Below are positions 46,625-56,295 of a stretch of DNA of 64,000 nt, one piece after another; the first letter of the stretch is position 1; the number at the start of each line of letters is the position of its first letter. Below the pieces are notes generated by a model, which saw only the letters and a program-made list of their open reading frames with translations, did no database searches and had not been told where the DNA came from. The stretch covers positions 1-64,000 of the IMG/VR virus record IMGVR_UViG_3300035670_000020; one strand, 5' to 3'. The translations under genes and the position numbers were made by a program. The DNA is from a virus.

Positions 46625-47401
46625 TTATTCGACTATTGTTTGCAGTTGTTCGTCTGTAAAAACGTCTCTTTTGTCGATCATTAAACAATATCTATAGTTT
46701 GGAGCACTAAATAATAAGCTTGATTTGTCTTTATTGATATATGAAACAAAACTTGCTAGATCCTCGTATACAGTTTTATTTGCTGTGTGAACTAAGTTCT
46801 CAAAGTCTCCAAACCTATTAACAGATAAAACAAATCTATATTTTTTATTGACATTAATGACTTCATGTAAAACATTATAGTATGGTGAGTCAACAACCAT
46901 TGTTTTTACTTCCCATAAATTTTTATAGTTACTATCTTTGATTATTTTTTCGATATTGAAATAGCTATGACGTTGATCTTTATCTTGATATCTTACAAAG
47001 ATAAGTTTTTGCGGTTGAATTGATAGATTCTTTATCTTATCTCCAATTTGTGTTAATTCATCAGAAGACATATCTTTTAGATTAATAACCATAAGATATT
47101 GAATAAAATTTGTTTGGTGGAATGTATTAATTTTTTCTTCTATTGTAGAATCTTCTGGAAAAAATGAATTTTCACGATATCCCAAACATTTCTTTTTATT
47201 AATAATGAAGAATTCTAGTTCATCGTCATAAGCTTCTAATATATCAACATTATGATTTTTATATTTATCGATATAGTTTAAATGGCATCCTTTTTGTGTG
47301 CGATCTTCATATATAGCAAATGCGCACTTTTTACATGGAGTATGTATTTTATCTATTGTTGGTAAAATAGGTTCTTCTATTTTTTGTTCGGTGTTTGACA
47401 T
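46625..47401 (-). CDS. glycan-block protein with N-terminal Cys cluster
   Basis: 258 aa. Cys motif 'PCKKCAFAIYEDRTQKGCHL' plus 'KKCLGYR' near the N-terminus may bind zinc or an Fe-S cluster. The remainder ('LIFVRYQDKDQR', 'NVLHEVINV', 'ENLVHTANKTVYEDLASF') resembles glycosyltransferase-2-like folds without a clear DxD. Its start overlaps the end of the intein-containing glycosyltransferase by 25 bp. Confidence 0.4.
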   Translation of the reverse strand: MSNTEQKIEEPILPTIDKIHTPCKKCAFAIYEDRTQKGCHLNYIDKYKNHNVDILEAYDDELEFFIINKKKCLGYRENSFFPEDSTIEEKINTFHQTNFIQYLMVINLKDMSSDELTQIGDKIKNLSIQPQKLIFVRYQDKDQRHSYFNIEKIIKDSNYKNLWEVKTMVVDSPYYNVLHEVINVNKKYRFVLSVNRFGDFENLVHTANKTVYEDLASFVSYINKDKSSLLFSAPNYRYCLMIDKRDVFTDEQLQTIVE

Positions 47402-50244
47402 GTTAAATAATTCTCCGGTAATAAACGTTCTGGATGATGTCTAATTTCTTCGTGTAGAATTTTTTCATTCATTATTTGTTCTAGTATTTCAACCGCTTCT
47501 TTATAAGAAAAACCAGAAATCTTACCTCGTCTAGCAACAATTCTTTGTGACATATCTTTAATCAAACATTGTATATTTGAGGTTTTTAATAGAAAGGGGT
47601 CATTAATAACATTAACCACTATATATTCTACAAATTCTCGCGGAGATAAGTTAGATGGTACTGAAATATTTTCGTGGTTTGTCTTAAATATAGTTGGATC
47701 ATTCCATGCTACTTTTTTAGTAATATCTATTGTATCAAATACTTCATCCCAAACTTTGAATGTATGATCCCATGTATACATATCAATACATTTTTTTCTG
47801 GTTTCTTCCCCCAGTCTCCTACGTTCATTATGGTCTTTCTTGAAGAAATCATACAAAAACTGAGATGTAAAATCATTATCTGGATAAACTCTATCTGCGT
47901 TTGTTTCTAGTTCTCTAAATTTTTTCTGTATTGGAATAAGTGTTCCTCCAACATTCTCGCAAATTTCTGTCATGGCACTATAATCAACACTTGCTATAGG
48001 AACACCAGCACTAGCAGCTTCTAGTTGTGGCATACCGAACCCCTCGCACTGAAATGTTGCTCCTATTTTAGTAGTCATAGTATGGTCGTCTTCTACGGTA
48101 ACGCACCAAACATCATCTTTATAGTTAGATTCTTGAATTCTTTTAATTTTTATTAAATGGTAATTCTGATAATAAACATTGTTAGTTCCGTTGCGTTTGG
48201 TTGAGAAATCACCTTTTTTAATATTACATCCATAAATTTCAAAACTATAACAATCTAATCTGTTTTTCTGGTCTGTTGTATTGTGTTCTACTCTATTGAT
48301 TTTTGATACCGAAAATGGTATTCTTAGTCTTCTTAAGATGTGTTTTATTTGTTCTGCAAGTGTGATAGAGATTGTACTAATTTGAGAATAATTTTTTTCT
48401 TCACAATAGTGTCCATCACCCATAAACATCCCTACTAAAATTTCTTTTTGTTTTTCTATAGGTAGATACAAACACCAATTTGGCAAACATTTATCTTCTT
48501 TGCTTCCAAACCAAGTAAAAAAAAGATTTCCATGTAGAGATGACCATAGAGAATTATCTTGAGCTAATCTATCTCTGTATGGTCTGATTGATTCTACGTT
48601 TGATATACTTAATTGTTTAAAGGCGTTCGATGCAACATAGTGGTTTTCTGTTTCTTTTATATGTGAAGTTATTTTTAGTCCTTTAGCTGTCGAATTTGCC
48701 GCATGTCCATCGGCAACAAAAAGACCCATAAATCTACAAAAATCTTTATCTATATTAATATATCGTGGATAGGAATAACCACCAATAACCTCTATATAGT
48801 CTTCTTTAGTTATATATGTATCATTGATTTCTTTGGCAATATCTATTTGTTCTATATCTTTAATCGTATCGTCTATTGGAAAACATAACATATCTCCTGA
48901 TTTTAATTCATTTAACTCATATTTTCCTGGTTCCGGCAGTTTTTTTTCTTCTCTTAATTTGTCTCCAATTTTTTCTCTAACTGTTCTCGATTTGTCGTTT
49001 TTAATTTCTGTTTGCGTATAAGCCGGAAATTCATGATTTTCTGTAGCTATTAATGTTTCGTAGTCTCCATGAATAGACAGTTCTAATATTTTTTTATTGT
49101 GACTTTTTGTTAGATTTTTCCATATGTTAGTAATTGGCTTCCATCTATTTTTATGGGTCCATGCTTCATCTCCAATTTTTGTTTTAGAAATAGGTATCCA
49201 TAATATCTCGTTATTTCTTTTAATTCTAATTTCTTCATTTTTACCAAGACATATTGAATATTGTATATATACGTCAAATAGATTATAGACCTCATTCAGT
49301 TGTTCATTATTTAAGCCATTAGATGTAGTTATAAAAGCTGCACTGTTACGAATACTACAATGAGGGCAATCAACTATTCCGCTACTATATTTATTTGCGC
49401 ACCATTTAAGACACTTGTTACACTTATATGTAAAATATACTTTGTCTAATAACTGAAACTCTAGTAATAAAGCAGGAATATCCCAACCAGCTTCTTCTGG
49501 ATATGATGTGTGAAAGTAAAGAACGGTATTATCTGCCATTGGATCATTTTCTGTTTTGAGTCTATCAAGATATTTACGAAATACCCGTAGAAGATCTGGC
49601 ATAAGTTTTCGTTTTTGGTTTCTCATTACGAAACCCACAACATTAACATCACGACCAAAAGTTTTTATTTGATGTTCTTTTTTGTCGTTTATTGGATAAA
49701 ATTCATTAGCGTTGATGCCAGCATTAACAATCTTAGGAAAAATATTTAACTTATCAGCTCCCTCGTTAGTTAAAGTATTTTTGGCCCATTGAGTATAGGG
49801 AACAACAATATCAGCATTAGCATAAGTATAATACCATTCTGTTTTTTGTGGAGAGGAATCTACTGTCGGCATTATTACCCAATGAAAATGTCTACGATAT
49901 GGACTCATTTCTTGATAAGAACTCATCCAATAATCTCTGACATCAAAAACTATATGGGGCTTAAAATCAAGAATAGCTCGATTAAATCTCCAGTTTCCAA
50001 ATTCATTAATTTTTTGTGTCTGGTATAGTTTTATTTTTTGTTCATCTTTAAGAGACGGATTATTTGGATATATCTTCCAAACACACTCTTGTACCCTAGC
50101 ATTATCTTCTGCACAATAACATGCTAGTTCTGCAATCTCATACTTACCAGAATTGTGTAGTCTAGTTAGTAGTTCTTTGCCGTAAACCCCATAACCACTT
50201 GAAATATAGTGCGCATCGTTAACGATAAATAATTTTTTTTTCAT
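47377..50244 (-). CDS. GT4-family glycosyltransferase interrupted by an intein
   Basis: 955 aa precursor, 554 aa after splicing. N-extein (1-331): 'FIVNDAHYISSGYGVYGKEL' GT-B start, 'VMPTVDSSPQKTEWYYTYAN', and a Cys4 segment 'CNKCLKWCANKYSSGIVDCP' inserted in the Rossmann linker. Intein at residues 332-732. C-extein starts at C733 and gives 'CEGFGMPQLEAASAGVPIAS', the conserved GT4 donor-binding E-G-F-G...E motif. Joining yields 'FDVYIQYSI' + 'CEGFGMP', a perfect family match, so the boundaries are secure. Without splicing the active site is broken. Confidence 0.85.
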   Translation of the reverse strand: MKKKLFIVNDAHYISSGYGVYGKELLTRLHNSGKYEIAELACYCAEDNARVQECVWKIYPNNPSLKDEQKIKLYQTQKINEFGNWRFNRAILDFKPHIVFDVRDYWMSSYQEMSPYRRHFHWVIMPTVDSSPQKTEWYYTYANADIVVPYTQWAKNTLTNEGADKLNIFPKIVNAGINANEFYPINDKKEHQIKTFGRDVNVVGFVMRNQKRKLMPDLLRVFRKYLDRLKTENDPMADNTVLYFHTSYPEEAGWDIPALLLEFQLLDKVYFTYKCNKCLKWCANKYSSGIVDCPHCSIRNSAAFITTSNGLNNEQLNEVYNLFDVYIQYSICLGKNEEIRIKRNNEILWIPISKTKIGDEAWTHKNRWKPITNIWKNLTKSHNKKILELSIHGDYETLIATENHEFPAYTQTEIKNDKSRTVREKIGDKLREEKKLPEPGKYELNELKSGDMLCFPIDDTIKDIEQIDIAKEINDTYITKEDYIEVIGGYSYPRYINIDKDFCRFMGLFVADGHAANSTAKGLKITSHIKETENHYVASNAFKQLSISNVESIRPYRDRLAQDNSLWSSLHGNLFFTWFGSKEDKCLPNWCLYLPIEKQKEILVGMFMGDGHYCEEKNYSQISTISITLAEQIKHILRRLRIPFSVSKINRVEHNTTDQKNRLDCYSFEIYGCNIKKGDFSTKRNGTNNVYYQNYHLIKIKRIQESNYKDDVWCVTVEDDHTMTTKIGATFQCEGFGMPQLEAASAGVPIASVDYSAMTEICENVGGTLIPIQKKFRELETNADRVYPDNDFTSQFLYDFFKKDHNERRRLGEETRKKCIDMYTWDHTFKVWDEVFDTIDITKKVAWNDPTIFKTNHENISVPSNLSPREFVEYIVVNVINDPFLLKTSNIQCLIKDMSQRIVARRGKISGFSYKEAVEILEQIMNEKILHEEIRHHPERLLPENYLTCQTPNKK
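48049..49251 (-). other. 401-aa class-1 intein with LAGLIDADG endonuclease in glycosyltransferase
   Basis: Starts at Cys1 (after ...YSI), with block B 'TENH' (T70, H73), two LAGLIDADG-type motifs 'FMGLFVADG' (174-182) and 'LVGMFMGDG' (272-280), block F 'VWCVTVEDDHTM' and terminal Gln401, followed by +1 Cys of the extein. A terminal Gln instead of Asn is uncommon but tolerated in some inteins. The DGH sequences after both motifs keep the catalytic acidic residues, so the endonuclease may be active. Confidence 0.88.
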
Positions 50245-50788: not shown

Positions 50789-50817
50789 ATTATAACAGGT
50801 GGGGAGGTCTGTGTCAA
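50789..50817 (-). promoter_or_regulatory. perfect sigma70-consensus promoter for ssb
   Basis: On the - strand TTGACA (50817-50812), exactly 17 bp, TATAAT (50794-50789). The -35 overlaps the stop codon of the upstream polymerase C-terminal gene. Predicted start near 50782 leaves a ~47-nt leader to the ssb ATG. An all-consensus promoter implies very strong early transcription by host RNA polymerase. Confidence 0.93.
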
Positions 50818-52451
50818 GTCTTGGCAACGTAAACCTTATCAACTATGAGAGAATCTCCCTTTTGTGACCTATTTCCCATAATTACGACAATATTGCCCAA
50901 AAACAAGGCTTGTCGGTATTGTTTATAAGTCTCCGGAAAAACAATAACATTGTCGAGAACACCTGTATTGTCTGATATCTCCAAAAATGCCATTTCTTGC
51001 CCAGCGGTCTTACCCTTTTTGGTTTTTGTAACATTGACATTCTCGATTTCCCCGCCCAAAACAATATTTTTATTGGCAAAGAAGGAAGTAATAGGGTTTT
51101 GATTAGCTTTCTTGAGTTCTTTACATGTTACATTCGTCATGCTAATGTCATACGCGTCCACTTTCGAGCAACTAACACTAGTACCAAGAATATTGTACTC
51201 TGCATCACTTAACCAATCAATAGTATCACTCAAAGAATAAGGTGGATTCTTAAATAGCTTCAACTTATCTTGTACTGCCGCAACTCTTTTAGTTTGTACT
51301 TTTCCGCTTTCTAGTAGTGCCGTTAATAGTTCGCCCAAGGTTTTATAATGCAGATTTGCATTACAGAATTTGAGTTCACCACCAGATAAATCCGATATTA
51401 ACTGAAACTCATATAACATAGACGATCTAGACTTATTGATATAAGATATTGCTCCACACTCTATAATAGCTTTTGCTGCTGTGGAATTGATATCGTTTAG
51501 AACTAGAAATAAGGTTTCTAGCCAATTTAATTCACCAATAGGCTTTGGTAATTTTTCTTGGATTTTAATCAACTTCTTATATACAGAATCGCCCAAACTC
51601 TTAATGTCCCTCAATCCAAAATAGATATCTCCATCATGAATAAAGAAATACTCGTTCATCATTCTTAAATCTGGAAGACGAACAGTAATATCCATTTCTG
51701 TGGCATTTTGGAAAAGCCCCTTTATCTCTGCATGAGGATCAATCTTATCACGAGCAAATTTGAGATACGCCTTGAAAAACATCTTGGGAAAGTGAGCTTT
51801 AGCATATGCTGATAAGTATGAATTCATAGCATATGACACAGCATGTGAGTGATTGAATGAGTAGCGTTGACTTTTTTCGATCCATGCAAATATCGTTTCT
51901 GCTTCACTTTCGTTTACAATTCCTAGTTTTTTACATCCTTCCATAAAAGCAGTTTTTACCTTAGCCATTTCATCAGCTTTCTTTTTGCCGATAGCTTTTC
52001 GTAAATCGTCAGCTTGTTGAGGAGTAAATCCAGCAATACGAACACAAATATCCATCGCTTGTTCTTGATAGATCATTTCGCCGTAACTATCTTTTAGGGA
52101 AGGCTCTAGAGCAGGATGAAAATAGTCAATACTTTCTTCTCCATTTTTTCTATCGATATAGTGTTGAGTAACACTTTTATTATCACGGATACTTTCGAGG
52201 CACCCAGGTCTAACTATCGATAATAAAGCAGAAAGATGTTCTATGATTTCTGGTTTTAGTTTTTTAGCAATACTGCGACCTAATCTGGACTCTAGCTGAA
52301 AAACTCCCTTAGTATTTCCGCTGCCAATAAGTTTCCATGTTCTTGGACATTCCAGATTAATATTTTCGATATCTGGATCAAATATGACTCGTCTATTCTT
52401 ATCTAGATTAAACTGGCAGCCACATGGGAATTTTATAATCTGATTAGACAT
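50814..52451 (-). CDS. dnaE: DNA polymerase III alpha, C-terminal half (split DnaE)
   Basis: 545 aa. After a short leader with 'FPCGCQF', the fingers region matches DnaE: 'TKGVFQLESRLGRSIAKKLKP', 'LLSIVRPG', 'YGEMIYQEQAMDICVRIAGF', 'ADDLRKAIGKKKADEM', 'YSFNHSHAVSYAMNSYLSAY'. An HhH-like region and a C-terminal OB fold ('LGGEIENVNVTKTKKGKT', 'FLEISDNTGVLDNVIVFPE') follow. No palm aspartates are present; these lie in the N-terminal half encoded at 53314-55246. The two chains must assemble. The break falls in the poorly conserved stretch between 'LDILG' and 'TKGVFQ', with no intein sequence at either end. Confidence 0.92.
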   Translation of the reverse strand: MSNQIIKFPCGCQFNLDKNRRVIFDPDIENINLECPRTWKLIGSGNTKGVFQLESRLGRSIAKKLKPEIIEHLSALLSIVRPGCLESIRDNKSVTQHYIDRKNGEESIDYFHPALEPSLKDSYGEMIYQEQAMDICVRIAGFTPQQADDLRKAIGKKKADEMAKVKTAFMEGCKKLGIVNESEAETIFAWIEKSQRYSFNHSHAVSYAMNSYLSAYAKAHFPKMFFKAYLKFARDKIDPHAEIKGLFQNATEMDITVRLPDLRMMNEYFFIHDGDIYFGLRDIKSLGDSVYKKLIKIQEKLPKPIGELNWLETLFLVLNDINSTAAKAIIECGAISYINKSRSSMLYEFQLISDLSGGELKFCNANLHYKTLGELLTALLESGKVQTKRVAAVQDKLKLFKNPPYSLSDTIDWLSDAEYNILGTSVSCSKVDAYDISMTNVTCKELKKANQNPITSFFANKNIVLGGEIENVNVTKTKKGKTAGQEMAFLEISDNTGVLDNVIVFPETYKQYRQALFLGNIVVIMGNRSQKGDSLIVDKVYVAKT

Positions 52452-52458
52452 CTATATT

Positions 52459-53145
52459 TTATACCTTAAATGAATCTCTAAACTTAACTTTACTACCAAG
52501 ATTTCTGAATAACTTCATGAAACGAATCATTATTTCTGCTGTGTCTTTAACGTCTTTAATAGCATCATGCGCTCCGTCTTTACTAATTCCAAGATATTCG
52601 CGCAAATTATCCATAGAATAACTTTTGAGGTCGCTATTACTTTCAAACCAATAAAACACAATATTCATAACATCAACCACATCGCGTGGATAGAAAATAT
52701 TTGTTGTATTATCTTTATTGGTCTGTCCATATTTTTTACTCAAACGATCAACAATACGTAAATCAAAACGATTGATATTATATCCAGCAGCAATAGGAGC
52801 ACTAAATTGGCTTTTGCGACTTCCTCGGCTATGATATTTATCAAGATAATTTACAAACATATTCCAGCTTTGTTGCTGTATTGGATATTTTTTCCATTCT
52901 TCTAGAACAGCAGCTTCTGAACAGCCCTTAACTTTACCGTGGAAACTTAATATGTCTGTAGTATATGTATAGTTATCATCTGCTTCCAGAACTTCTGGTT
53001 TGAAATTTACATTAAATTCTGATCCTTTAACTATTTCTAATTTAACTGGGTCAACAATAACAGCAGCAATTTGTACAGGAGAACAAGTTTCTGGATTATT
53101 GCCGTCTGTCTCAAAGTCAAATACGCAAATTGGATTTTTGTTCAT
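52459..53145 (-). CDS. DnaQ-type 3'-5' proofreading exonuclease
   Basis: 228 aa. Exo I 'VFDFETDG' (D10, E12), Exo II 'AAGYNINRFDLRIVD', Exo III 'GAHDAIKDVKDTAEIM' (H and D present). DEDDh type. Encoded between the two halves of the polymerase subunit, consistent with an epsilon-like proofreading subunit that joins the split alpha. The longer spacing before Exo II is phage-like. Confidence 0.92.
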   Translation of the reverse strand: MNKNPICVFDFETDGNNPETCSPVQIAAVIVDPVKLEIVKGSEFNVNFKPEVLEADDNYTYTTDILSFHGKVKGCSEAAVLEEWKKYPIQQQSWNMFVNYLDKYHSRGSRKSQFSAPIAAGYNINRFDLRIVDRLSKKYGQTNKDNTTNIFYPRDVVDVMNIVFYWFESNSDLKSYSMDNLREYLGISKDGAHDAIKDVKDTAEIMIRFMKLFRNLGSKVKFRDSFKV

Positions 53146-53150
53146 CTAAA

Positions 53151-53333
53151 TTATTCCTCAATTTCTACACTTACCAATGGTTTAATCATAATCTTTGTAT
53201 CAGGATTATCGACTTCTGCTGCGTTCAATGTTTTACAGCAGCTTACTTTTTGATCTGTTACTCTTGTGTATTGTTTTCCGTTGTAAGTAAAAACTTGTCC
53301 AACACTCAATGTCTTAAATAATACAGCCTTCAT
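53151..53333 (-). CDS. 60-aa protein of unknown function
   Basis: 60 aa. 'VLFKTLSVGQVFTYNGKQYTR' followed by 'NAAEVDNPDTKIMIKP' resembles small beta-barrel phage proteins with a 'L.VG..F..NG..Y.+V' pattern. It overlaps the end of the polymerase N-terminal half by 20 bp and precedes the exonuclease by 5 bp, so it is in the replication operon. Confidence 0.6.
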   Translation of the reverse strand: MKAVLFKTLSVGQVFTYNGKQYTRVTDQKVSCCKTLNAAEVDNPDTKIMIKPLVSVEIEE

Positions 53334-55246
53334 TTGTTATCTCCGTTTCTAATAAGGTTTCTTGAATATCCATAATTTTATCTAGATATGCTATACCTAA
53401 GATATCAAGTTTAATTACCCCGATAGCTTCTAGATCTTGCATTTCCATACCAGCAATAAGTTGTTTGTTCTTACTATCATAAATCATTGGGCAGATTTCT
53501 GCAAGCGGATCAGAGCTAATAGCTATTCCAGCAGCGTGTTTTGATTGATTGCTTTTTGTTCCTTCAAGCCTAATAGCCTGTTCAAAGCGTTTTGCTAATG
53601 GACCCTCTAATTCGCCCGCTTCATTATAGAAACAATAATCTCTAAGATGATCAGCCATATTTTCTAGGCTCCATCCTAAAATAGACGCTTCTCCCGTTTC
53701 CTCTTTCATTGTCTGTAGTTCGTCGGAAATCTTAGATTCTTCTGGAATATTTTTGGTAATTTTATTCATTTCTTCAAATGATACATTACCATATACTCTT
53801 AGAACATCTTTGAGGGCGGCACGACCTTTGATTGTATTAAATGTAATCATTTGTGAAACATTTTTATGACCATATTTATCTTTGATATATTGTATAACGT
53901 GTTCACGCTTTTCAATAGGAACGTCAACATCAATATCTGGTAGACTTATATGATCAGCAGTATTTCTTCCTTCGTTATAAAATCTTGAAAATAATAGATT
54001 GTATTTGATCGGATCTATTTGTGTAATACCAATTAAATAAGATACTAAACAACCGGCACTCGACCCACGGCCAGGGCCGGGAAGCCAGCCGCTTCTTCTA
54101 ATAAAATCTAAAATATCCGACACAATTAAAAAATAACTACTAAGACCAGCTCCCTGTAGAATATCCAATTCACTTTTAATTCTGTCAATATATATTTGAT
54201 GTTGATCTTGTGGAATTTTGTCTTTGATTTTTTTAACCCAACCCTTACGACAAAGTTCGCGCAAATACTCGTCCTCATTAAATCCGTCAGGACAAGGAAA
54301 TTTGGGAAGTCTTGGTTTGCTTAGAATAGAATATTCCTCAACCATATCGTTAACAATATTTGTATTAGCTATCTCTTCTTCGGTATGGATTGCCGCCATT
54401 TCTTCTTGTGAAGGAATATGATAACAATCGCTCTTAAAGAAACACCCAAGTGGCACATCTTCTCCGCGAGATAATTTATCACTAATTTCGCTAAATGTTG
54501 TTTTCAGATTATTGCACAACAAAATACGCTGATCTTCACAATCAGATCGTTCACAATAATGCGCATCAGGAGTACATATTACTTTAACGCCCGTCTTCTT
54601 TCCAATTTCCCTAATAGCATTAGTAAGATCAACTTGAATAGGAAGATTGTCCTTATCAATTAGCTGGGCCTCAAGAAATAGCTGACTACCGAAAATCGTC
54701 TTGAGATATTCAACGTGTTTCACGCCTAGCTCTAACCAGTTTTCTCGCAATCGCCCATAGTCTTCAACAATTTCATCTGCTAAACTTGATCCTAAATGAC
54801 CAGTTATACCTATTAGATTTCCACTATTCAATTTCTTAATGGACTCAAAATCTAGTCTTGGTTTATAATAGAAATTTTCAGGTAAATTACTTGTGGAAAC
54901 AATTTTAATCAGATCTTTCCATCCTTGTAGGTTTTTGCATAAAACTAAGAAGTGAGACAAACTTTTATTTGATTCATCTTGAATTGTTGGATCATTTTTA
55001 CATATATATAACTCGCAACCCAAAATAGGTTTGATTTTTGCTGCTTTTAAGCTCTTATAGAATTTTACAACGCCCGCTATGGAGCCGTGGTCGGTAATAG
55101 CACAAGCTGTTGCTCCGATAGCTTTGCATCTTTGAGCAATTTTGTCTGTTTTGCTGAGTCCGTCAAGCAAAGAAAAATGCGATTTACGAATGGACGTGTA
55201 GCGGCACATACCTGGCCGACACGTCCAAAATTTTCTCCTCTGTCAT
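53314..55246 (-). CDS. dnaE: DNA polymerase III alpha, N-terminal half (PHP + palm), apparently requiring a 7-nt ribosomal hop
   Basis: The PHP and palm half of DnaE. Palm: 'GPGRGSSAGCLVSYLIGI', 'LPDIDVDV' and 'KLDILG' give catalytic D425, D427 and D602, numbered from an internal ATG at 55209. Downstream PHP motifs 'ITDHG' and 'PDAHY' are present. The true N-terminus 'YVPLHVHS' is encoded from the ATG at 55246 (2 bp after the upstream stop) in another frame and ends TCG-TAA at 55189-55184. 'HFSLLDG' continues from 55179 directly after a second TCG. The internal ATG at 55209 would give 'MCRYTSIRKS', replacing the metal-binding HxH. Either translational bypassing, +1 frameshifting, a mutation or an assembly error is involved. 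The protein ends before the fingers domain, encoded separately at 50814-52451. Confidence 0.88.
55177..55226 (-). promoter_or_regulatory. candidate recoding (translational bypass) site with hairpin
   Basis: Transcript order: 5' arm 55226-55215, 9-nt loop 55214-55206, 3' arm 55205-55192 with a 2-nt bulge (55201-55200). This is a 12-bp GC-rich stem in an AT-rich gene. Three nt later come take-off codon TCG (55189-55187), stop TAA (55186-55184), A, and an identical TCG (55182-55180), then CAT that resumes the conserved reading. The loop also contains an out-of-frame ATG (55209). Confidence 0.55.
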
Positions 55247-55248
55247 AA

Positions 55249-56295
55249 TTATTCTATTGTTCCTGGAGCCTTATAATGAGCAACACTATAGTCTTTTGGT
55301 TGATATTTCTTGATGGTATCATTCATACCCATTAGATTAATATCGTGTCTGATTTGTTCACACATAGTCATTGGTGATCCGTTCTCGCATACTTGACCGT
55401 CGCGGTACTCTATAATAGGCAGAATTGTGGGATGTCCAACAAACGTGTTTTTACCGAAATAGCAAAACTTCTTACATCTCCACGATTTAGAAAGTTTTGG
55501 TTTCTTGCATCTTTTAATTGCCTCAAATTTAACACGAAGCATTTCTTCGGTTTCGGCCAAATCATCCTTGCTAAAACACACAGAAAAAGGTCCGCCATCA
55601 TTAATAAAATTGATAGTCACAATAATATGTTCATATTGAGGATACATTTTACTAATAGCATAATGATATATTCTTAATTGAGGGTCTTTGTAGAGTTTGG
55701 CTAAGGTTTTTTCTTCTCCTGTCGCCCAATCTTTTCTTCTTCCTGTTTTTAAATCGATAATTTCTAATGTATCTTTATTTTCCTGTACTATAAGGTCTAT
55801 TGTTCCTTTGATTCCTAATTTTCCCCTAATTTTTCCTTCAGGTAAATCGTACTCATAATTCGCCCATTCTTTATCAATAATGATATCAAAATGTCCCTCA
55901 CTACTAAAGATGTTTCTGTTGCGTGGATCAAACATCCCATTGTGTGATGTGAGCATCGTATTGACCCATTTGAGGCATTCTTTTAAATCTTTGGGTGTCC
56001 AGACAAGGTTTTTAGATGCGGCCGTGTAATGATCGTATATGGATTTGGTCAATTTTTCGACATTATACTTTTTAATATCAATCTTGCCAATCATATCATC
56101 TGTATAAGATTTTGTACCATTTTGTTCACATAATTTAATTTCGGCCAAAATTTCCATAACCTTATGGCAAATACTACCTTTATCTGCTGCTTTTCCTGAT
56201 GGGCTTTTAATACCAATATTATATTCAAGAAAATAGGCGTGTTCACAGAGGCTATGTGTGTTATATGATGAACTTCTGAGATATGTTATTATCAT
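55249..56295 (-). CDS. Cas4/RecB-like PD-(D/E)XK exonuclease
   Basis: 348 aa. RecB motifs: H44 in 'KGSICHKVMEIL', D167 in 'GTIDLIV', D181 and K183 in 'LEIIDLKTGR', then a Q/Y-type helix 'DPQLRIYHYAISK'. C17 near the start and C263, C274, C278 near the end could ligate a 4Fe-4S cluster as in Cas4/AddB nucleases. A phage recombination or end-processing nuclease acting with RecA. Stop is 2 bp before the polymerase ATG at 55246, supporting coupling. Confidence 0.85.
   Translation of the reverse strand: MIITYLRSSSYNTHSLCEHAYFLEYNIGIKSPSGKAADKGSICHKVMEILAEIKLCEQNGTKSYTDDMIGKIDIKKYNVEKLTKSIYDHYTAASKNLVWTPKDLKECLKWVNTMLTSHNGMFDPRNRNIFSSEGHFDIIIDKEWANYEYDLPEGKIRGKLGIKGTIDLIVQENKDTLEIIDLKTGRRKDWATGEEKTLAKLYKDPQLRIYHYAISKMYPQYEHIIVTINFINDGGPFSVCFSKDDLAETEEMLRVKFEAIKRCKKPKLSKSWRCKKFCYFGKNTFVGHPTILPIIEYRDGQVCENGSPMTMCEQIRHDINLMGMNDTIKKYQPKDYSVAHYKAPGTIE

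Follow-up and report, generated by a model that had tools for sequence, protein, structure and literature searches.

A candidate mobile bypass element at the start of phage DNA polymerase III alpha genes

Described bypass systems and the dnaE start

The closest described counterpart of the element reported here is the translational bypass of phage T4 gene 60, with mobA (PMC3014915, PMC5009743, PMC11194080, PMC2988022); published systems are compared as the available portions of the cited papers describe them. The element stands at the start of dnaE in 64,000 nucleotides (nt) of viral DNA (IMG/VR record IMGVR_UViG_3300035670_000020, positions 1 to 64,000; 'the window'), part of a 159,970-base virus record, and the sequences make a short programmed bypass at this point the probable explanation. 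As in T4, a stop codon directly follows the take-off codon, a stem-loop lies 5' of take-off, a further stem-loop holds the stop (in most relatives, not in the window) and, in some relatives, an HNH-type endonuclease gene is found nearby. The carrier is again an essential gene of phage replication type, and the insert is missing from most relatives. The dnaE gap measures 3-9 nt (stop included) against 50 in T4, take-off is from a serine UCN codon instead of GGA, the landing codon is often not identical and the product is DnaE, not a topoisomerase. The hairpin starts at the start codon itself, and the element is scattered over many phages instead of one. In T4 the nascent peptide stimulates bypass through a signal, KKYK, placed some 30 residues ahead of the P site; bypass in general does not require it. 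The dnaE leader lacks a KKYK-type signal, and since it has only 13-14 codons, with codons 2-6 free, the T4 device cannot operate here.

Other systems share some of these traits. The byps of Magnusiomyces capitatus mitochondria are also short skipped inserts in coding genes with take-off and landing codons not always matched, but they appear independent of mRNA context and have an unused A-site codon, whereas the dnaE element has one site, conserved hairpins and true stops (PMC5009743). Bypass is suspected in other phage genes, the terminase of Streptomyces phage Hau3 (PMC5009743) and the tape-measure gene of mycobacteriophage Corndog (PMC4351075). Corndog has an HNH gene at the gene start, as do some dnaE loci, and its authors keep ACG initiation as an alternative; a double hairpin like that of the dnaE element is not described in the available portions of either source. 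One dnaE relative (L010; loci are cited by number) has matched codons around the stop, in frame, TCT TAA TCT, or nine nt for one residue. It resembles the synthetic 'stop-hops' of Escherichia coli but is a natural gene with a 5' hairpin, and the authors of the review that treats stop-hops knew of no natural in-frame case (PMC5009743).

Is such an element new? In a 2010 review bypassing seemed confined to T4 gene 60 within the set of related phages treated there (PMC3014915), and a 2016 review noted a long-standing presumption that counterparts exist, perhaps with shorter jumps (PMC5009743). Searches of the bypass literature (homing endonucleases, gene 60, MobA, take-off and landing) gave T4, mitochondrial, tool and review papers and the suspected cases of Hau3 and Corndog; no paper on translational bypass in a bacteriophage DnaE was found in the literature covered, which did not include subscription papers or bioRxiv. 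As far as these searches show, the dnaE element would be the first bypass element found to be conserved across many phages.

An earlier sequence-only reading of the window described a dnaE frame split in its first conserved motif, and the split is real. The leader reads YVPLHVHS up to a TAA at 55186, HFSLLDG follows from 55179 in another frame after a second TCG, and a TCG-to-TCG hop over 7 nt (55186-55180) rejoins HVHS with HFSLLDG. The features of the locus, all on the minus strand, are:

55249-56295, minus strand: upstream PD-(D/E)XK nuclease gene, ending just before the leader frame
55246, minus strand: ATG opening the leader frame; not the start aligned with relatives
55235-55240, minus strand: GAGGAG, a Shine-Dalgarno-like site; AGGAG lies 6 nt before TTG 55228
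55187-55228, minus strand: leader of 14 codons, TTG to TCG, LDVSARYVPLHVHS, encoding the start of the PHP domain
55191-55227, minus strand: hairpin 1, arm 55227-55213 with 55208-55191, predicted -22.2 kcal/mol
55189-55187, minus strand: take-off codon TCG, the last leader codon
55183-55186, minus strand: gap before the landing codon, made up of the stop TAA (55186-55184) and one nt (A)
55180-55182, minus strand: putative landing codon TCG, the same triplet as take-off
53314-55179, minus strand: resumed dnaE frame, HFSLLDG onward from CAT 55179-55177, with PHP and DNA_pol3_alpha domains
50814-52451, minus strand: separate C-terminal dnaE piece with finger, HHH and a weak OB match (context only)

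The minus strand thus runs CAC GTC CAT TCG, TAA, A, TCG, CAT. HFSLLDG lies in an open reading frame (ORF; 53314-55209) other than the leader's, and its PHP and DNA_pol3_alpha matches mark the product as a DnaE-type DNA polymerase III alpha. The beginning of an intact relative (L003, YIPLHVHSHFSLLDG) aligns with bacterial DnaE structures, among them Taq DnaE (FAHLHQHTQFSLLDG). The HxH of the PHP domain, a motif with a role in metal binding, therefore comes from the leader. The start had been placed at ATG 55246; TTG 55228 is instead the codon aligned with the relatives' start, and it yields a 14-codon leader, as in most of them. The hairpin reported before take-off is present, but in the predicted fold it ends 1 nt, not 3, before the take-off codon.

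The window phage also has its DnaE split on a larger scale (50814-55209, minus strand), as a PHP/palm piece followed by three further parts: a 60-amino-acid ORF (53151-53333), a DnaQ-like exonuclease (52459-53145) and the finger/HHH piece (50814-52451).

The element in related dnaE genes

Relatives came from several scans. A protein-led scan of IMG/VR with the resumed (main) part gave 71 loci, mostly with unbroken starts such as MKNYIPLHVHSHYSLLDG. L001 and L002 are the window's own sequence, and a stop lies at or beside the same point in L010, L012, L027, L028, L036, L040, L049, L055, L060 and the distant L065, so that the element occurs in 12 of the 71 (L065 and the two window-phage copies included). 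When the main part from eight element genes served as the query, 10 of 80 loci (the best 80 of 406 relatives) carried it. Two pattern scans returned 72 stretches, 55 at dnaE, and 70 stretches, 61 at dnaE; the 17 and 9 away from dnaE are chance-like. A genome scan added five loci, L225 among them with the element, and an endonuclease-gene scan the best 80 of 417. The master table holds 223 loci with a dnaE start, 143 of them distinct: 86 intact, 53 with an element (a family of 52, window gene included, plus L065, kept outside it) and 4 other. The 52 are a non-random set, two scans having targeted the element and a third the endonuclease gene. Six distant intact rows (L056, L062, L063, L064, L066, L068) were excluded from codon comparisons, which leaves 80 intact; L069-L071 resemble other proteins, L226 is intact by eye with its anchor misplaced, and L103 and L126, at contig ends, are outside the table. 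L225 and L226 are the only close relatives in the genome collection, short contigs binned with Chitinophagia and Flavobacteriales metagenome-assembled genomes, a weak hint of Bacteroidota hosts.

The family shares one layout: a Shine-Dalgarno-like site, a start codon (ATG, with TTG in the window and GTG in L010), 13-14 codons ending in YxPLHVHS, a stop, 0-6 nt, mostly a Ser, Thr or Ala codon, and mostly [H/M][Y/F]SLLDG. The word AGGAG, AGGA or AAGG lies 6-12 nt 5' of the start codon in all 52 genes. A stop directly 3' of the take-off codon, which was also the recognition criterion, is likewise present in 52 of 52, window included (27 TAA, 23 TAG, 2 TGA). Gap lengths, counted with the stop, are 3 nt in one gene, 4 in two, 6 in 10, 7 in 20, 8 in 18 and 9 in one; modulo three, the remainder is 0 in 12 genes, 1 in 22 and 2 in 18. 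Since all three frames occur, no single frameshift or readthrough fits the set.

Take-off is from TCT in 35 genes, TCC in 15 and TCG and TCA in one each, and the landing codons are TCT (17), TCA (11), GCT (9), ACT (8), TCC (4), TCG, GCC and TGA (one each). The identity of take-off and landing codons stressed in the sequence-only reading is thus a trait of the window (TCG/TCG) that extends to just 15 of the 52 genes, although both are UCN in 33. What sets the landing point? The rule that the tRNA lands on the first triplet it can hold by the middle pair plus one fits 51 of 52 genes if the overlapping +1 triplet is not counted and 36 if it is; it is suggestive only, because hairpin 2 too keeps C out of most gaps. 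AGY codons are missing from the landing position (0 of 52 elements against 28 of 80 intact genes, Fisher 1e-7; at other Ser codons AGY makes up a similar 25.0% and 27.7%). Avoidance of AGY is nevertheless not established: a relatedness-aware comparison of 11 independent pairs gave a median p of 0.5.

The RNA folds are a second line of evidence. The predicted leader fold begins at the start codon and ends just 5' of the take-off codon. In the window none of 200 synonymous recodings matches its stability (z -6.04), and the same holds for 29 of 38 leaders; the median z is -4.65 for these 38 and -0.29 for 80 intact starts. Outer-stem cells of hairpin 1 are paired in 98.6% (41 distinct rows) and 98.8% (36 rows), and one pair is G-C in 26, A-U in 13 and G-U in 2 of 41 rows; the inner stem of the leaders alone pairs in 59% in one fixed register. 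Further pair types show no excess over shuffles in the leaders alone (374 of 500 as high); the same measure was 56 of 500 in alignment A5, where both stems together have 6 doubly changed pairs against 2.1 after shuffling (0 of 500 as high). In most relatives a second hairpin forms between stop plus gap and the SLL codons, with the landing codon in or beside the loop, e.g. AAGTGAAT with ATTCACTT, TAGAGAAT with ATTCTCTA or TAGCGA with TCGCTA. A run of at least 5 contiguous pairs is found in 49 of 52 genes, L001 (the window sequence), L010 and L091 falling short, and 91.4% of this hairpin's cells pair on A5. When the register may shift by up to 2 nt, complementarity over 28 distinct pairs reaches 172, a value that none of 20,000 permutations attains (mean 140, maximum 162).

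With the window, L010, L241 and L065 left out of its training set, a covariance model nevertheless finds the first three at 44.2, 62.9 and 71.9 bits, the window match being 55157-55228 on the minus strand (E 3.6e-8); it does not find L065. The resemblance to T4 hairpins noted earlier stands in the window for the 5' hairpin, the second being a trait of most relatives and absent there. A pairing of the outer stem GUCCAUUC/GGAUGGAC was also considered as a hairpin switch, GGATGGAC being present in 44 of 52 elements and 12 of 80 intact genes; there is no covariation and shuffles pair equally well, which makes the switch a guess.

The leader peptide is under constraint. YxPLHVHS is retained in 40 of 40 distinct leader rows, with solely synonymous change except at position x, as expected if the leader belongs to the finished polymerase. 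Codons 7 and 9-14 have 1860 synonymous and 0 nonsynonymous differing pairs, and codons 9 and 10 vary at silent sites yet keep P and L. Codon 8, which varies in intact genes too, has 161 and 444, and codons 2-6 have 246 and 1673 in the 33 leaders of 14 codons (282 and 2735 if five 13-codon leaders, out of register, are included).

Probable mobility and the endonuclease gene

Element and intact genes are scattered among one another, as expected of a mobile insert. Presence and absence require 17 changes, 11 of them forced by starred branches, against 36 with shuffled labels, on a DnaE tree made with FastTree from 121 rows, 76 of them intact and 45 with the element (sequence beginning at the S of SLLDG; long branches flagged by the program). 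The 45 are those of the 52 elements with at least 300 amino acids. Upstream of 12 of 52 element genes and 3 of 86 intact genes, no more than 300 nt away, stands an HNH/endonuclease-VII-like gene (Fisher 5e-4, uncorrected for relatedness and with one scan aimed at this gene); it matches phrog_3322, 374 and 1035 and no Pfam family above cut-off. In L012, L036, L252 and L253 the 3' end of this gene runs into the leader. Two of the 12 loci, L036/L123 and L075, keep a truncated old dnaE start upstream of the endonuclease gene (MKNYIPLHVHAH and MKNYIPLHAHSH, each ending at a stop), which implies that the cassette brought a replacement 5' end.

On this evidence it is reasonably likely that these are mobile 'jump cassettes' of an endonuclease gene, a replacement dnaE 5' end and two hairpins flanking take-off, serving moves of 6-12 nt in any frame with landing on two of three pairs. 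The natural in-frame stop-hop of L010 and the window with hairpin 1 alone would be among them, and the window is best read as a reduced form, without the endonuclease gene and hairpin 2. L065, a single contig, perhaps had a separate origin. Its DnaE is about 30% identical to the window's, its stop follows HRHG, take-off and landing are both GGT, 2 nt apart, and an HNH gene (phrog_826; Pfam HNH_3 below cut-off) lies directly upstream. One hairpin begins at the ATG and ends just short of the take-off codon (z -1.85, with 48 of 1000 recodings equally stable), a second holds the stop, and the nearest relatives, L337 (85%) and L338 (82%), are unbroken. Such a device may have evolved independently in this distant DnaE, beside a different HNH gene and using Gly codons.

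Does the element occur in other genes? Model R1, run over 30 whole records, gave one strong match each (E 2.4e-11 or better) in 17, and the remaining matches have E of at least 2.9e-4, several of these being at the same site but on the other strand. Among 23 flanks of endonuclease relatives (L252-L274) inspected by eye, just L252 and L253 have the element, both at dnaE. A pattern for shorter gaps of 3-6 nt found 7 stretches, every one on an already known contig.

A relative of the dnaE-linked HNH-type endonuclease, with two matching stretches, lies away from dnaE in the window's record, outside the window (G000:C1, 105856-106551). Endonuclease-gene relatives are directly upstream of unbroken dnaE in L051, L056/L057, L197 and L199. 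In L055 (5034-7295) the cassette-bearing dnaE ends early, at 461 amino acids, and is followed by a 283-amino-acid ORF of unknown kind, perhaps a second insertion. Within the window a glycosyltransferase-like gene (47377-50244, minus strand) has an apparent intein, with weak Intein_splicing, Hom_end and LAGLIDADG_3 matches, of which LAGLIDADG_3 alone passes its cut-off.

A proposed jump and its rivals

How might the two frames be joined? Initiation would occur at TTG 55228 (ATG in most relatives), and the ribosome would translate the 14-codon leader, whose 42 nt encode the HxH start of the PHP domain and also form the hairpin. Once peptidyl-tRNA-Ser occupied the final codon of the leader, with the stop in the A site, termination would be avoided and the tRNA would release the mRNA. 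The hairpin, re-forming behind the ribosome, would pull the mRNA back, a motor role proposed by analogy with the T4 model. The ribosome would advance 7 nt in the window (6-12 nt in the family), the same tRNA would re-pair at the next triplet able to hold it, and decoding would resume at H[FY]SLLDG to give an unbroken polymerase. The cassette would have spread among phages through homing by the upstream HNH-type endonuclease, whose gene is present in some relatives, and the insert of stop and gap would shield the carrier's own site from cutting, as suggested for T4 gene 60. Visible in the DNA are the split frame and its conservation, the hairpins, the leader-peptide constraint, the scattered distribution and the adjacent endonuclease genes; the jump and its frequency, the hairpin's motor role, the homing and the immunity are inferred.

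Could the leader instead be a short regulatory or dead ORF, with DnaE starting downstream and lacking its first PHP strand? ATG 55209 in the window does lie in the resumed frame, in 28 of 52 element genes an in-frame start codon precedes the landing codon or an ATG occurs among the four codons that follow it, and TTG, the second Leu of SLLDG, is present in 48. Yet the other 24 genes lack both a resumed-frame ATG, GTG or TTG 5' of the landing codon and an ATG in the four codons after it, a start at the SLLDG codon would cost the beginning of the PHP domain, and YxPLHVHS is kept through synonymous change only. Of the two candidate starts in the window, TTG 55228 has the good Shine-Dalgarno site and ATG 55209 sits inside the hairpin; a downstream start is therefore unlikely. 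A +1 frameshift at the stop or a stop readthrough, varying gene by gene, has a small chance. For the window alone a +1 shift would restore the frame with two extra residues (HVHSKSHF), as the sequence-only reading had recognized; it would suffice in the 22 genes of remainder 1, as readthrough would in the 12 of remainder 0, and in the 15 genes with TCC take-off a slip onto CCT would retain two of three pairs. Against this, remainder 2 accounts for 18 genes, all three stops are in use, and one shared architecture would demand three mechanisms, with extra residues inside a conserved motif. A single +1 shift or readthrough for the whole family was rejected on these remainders. An internal start at 55209 or a +1 shift is possible for the window by itself, and the family makes both unlikely.

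A gene broken by mutation or misassembly, or a gap excised from RNA or DNA, is very improbable. The frame is continuous in 86 of 143 distinct relatives, which suits a broken gene and had been named in the sequence-only reading as a refuting outcome; the result is mixed, since the element turns up repeatedly among those relatives in the scattered way of a mobile insert. Two further IMG/VR contigs (3300034073_003542 and 3300036770_003811) carry DNA identical to that in the window's own record, the 52 genes share the stop and covarying hairpins, and the main part is open for 631 codons in the window; plain mutation and misassembly, the alternatives named at the outset, were rejected on these grounds. 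An insert of 3-9 nt is also far below the size of any self-splicing intron that we know of. A suppressor tRNA was rejected as well, all three stops being used and a scan of the window, not of the rest of the record, having found no tRNA gene.

Some findings weigh against a programmed bypass by a mobile cassette. The landing codon is unlike the take-off codon in 37 of 52 genes and non-UCN in 19. An odd element, L241 (3721-3792, minus strand), has take-off TCA, then TGAG, then a second TGA in place of a landing codon; it retains both hairpins and is a poor fit. The window lacks the stop-holding hairpin 2, which in a fixed register is only weakly significant in the family (17 pairs, with 369 of 10,000 shuffles reaching that level), one sub-group being offset by a single nt. 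Hairpin 1 limits silent change in parts of the leader, and the constraint there may be partly due to it. No endonuclease gene stands beside the window's dnaE, 40 of 52 elements have none within 300 nt, and the pairing is not obligatory, for in 3 of the 86 distinct intact genes such a gene stands next to an unbroken dnaE. The new, very short programmed bypass first proposed for the window is supported nonetheless by the stop, the hairpin, the conserved leader peptide and gaps in all three frames over 52 genes.

The family constitutes a natural series of 52 variants in one gene, with differing gaps, stops, hairpins and landing codons. The rules of bypass (gap length, codon match, 5' hairpin and take-off hairpin) thereby become testable on a segment of about 80 nt. 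Through its evolutionary record the series can also put to the test whether a homing endonuclease's own carrier is protected by bypass inserts.

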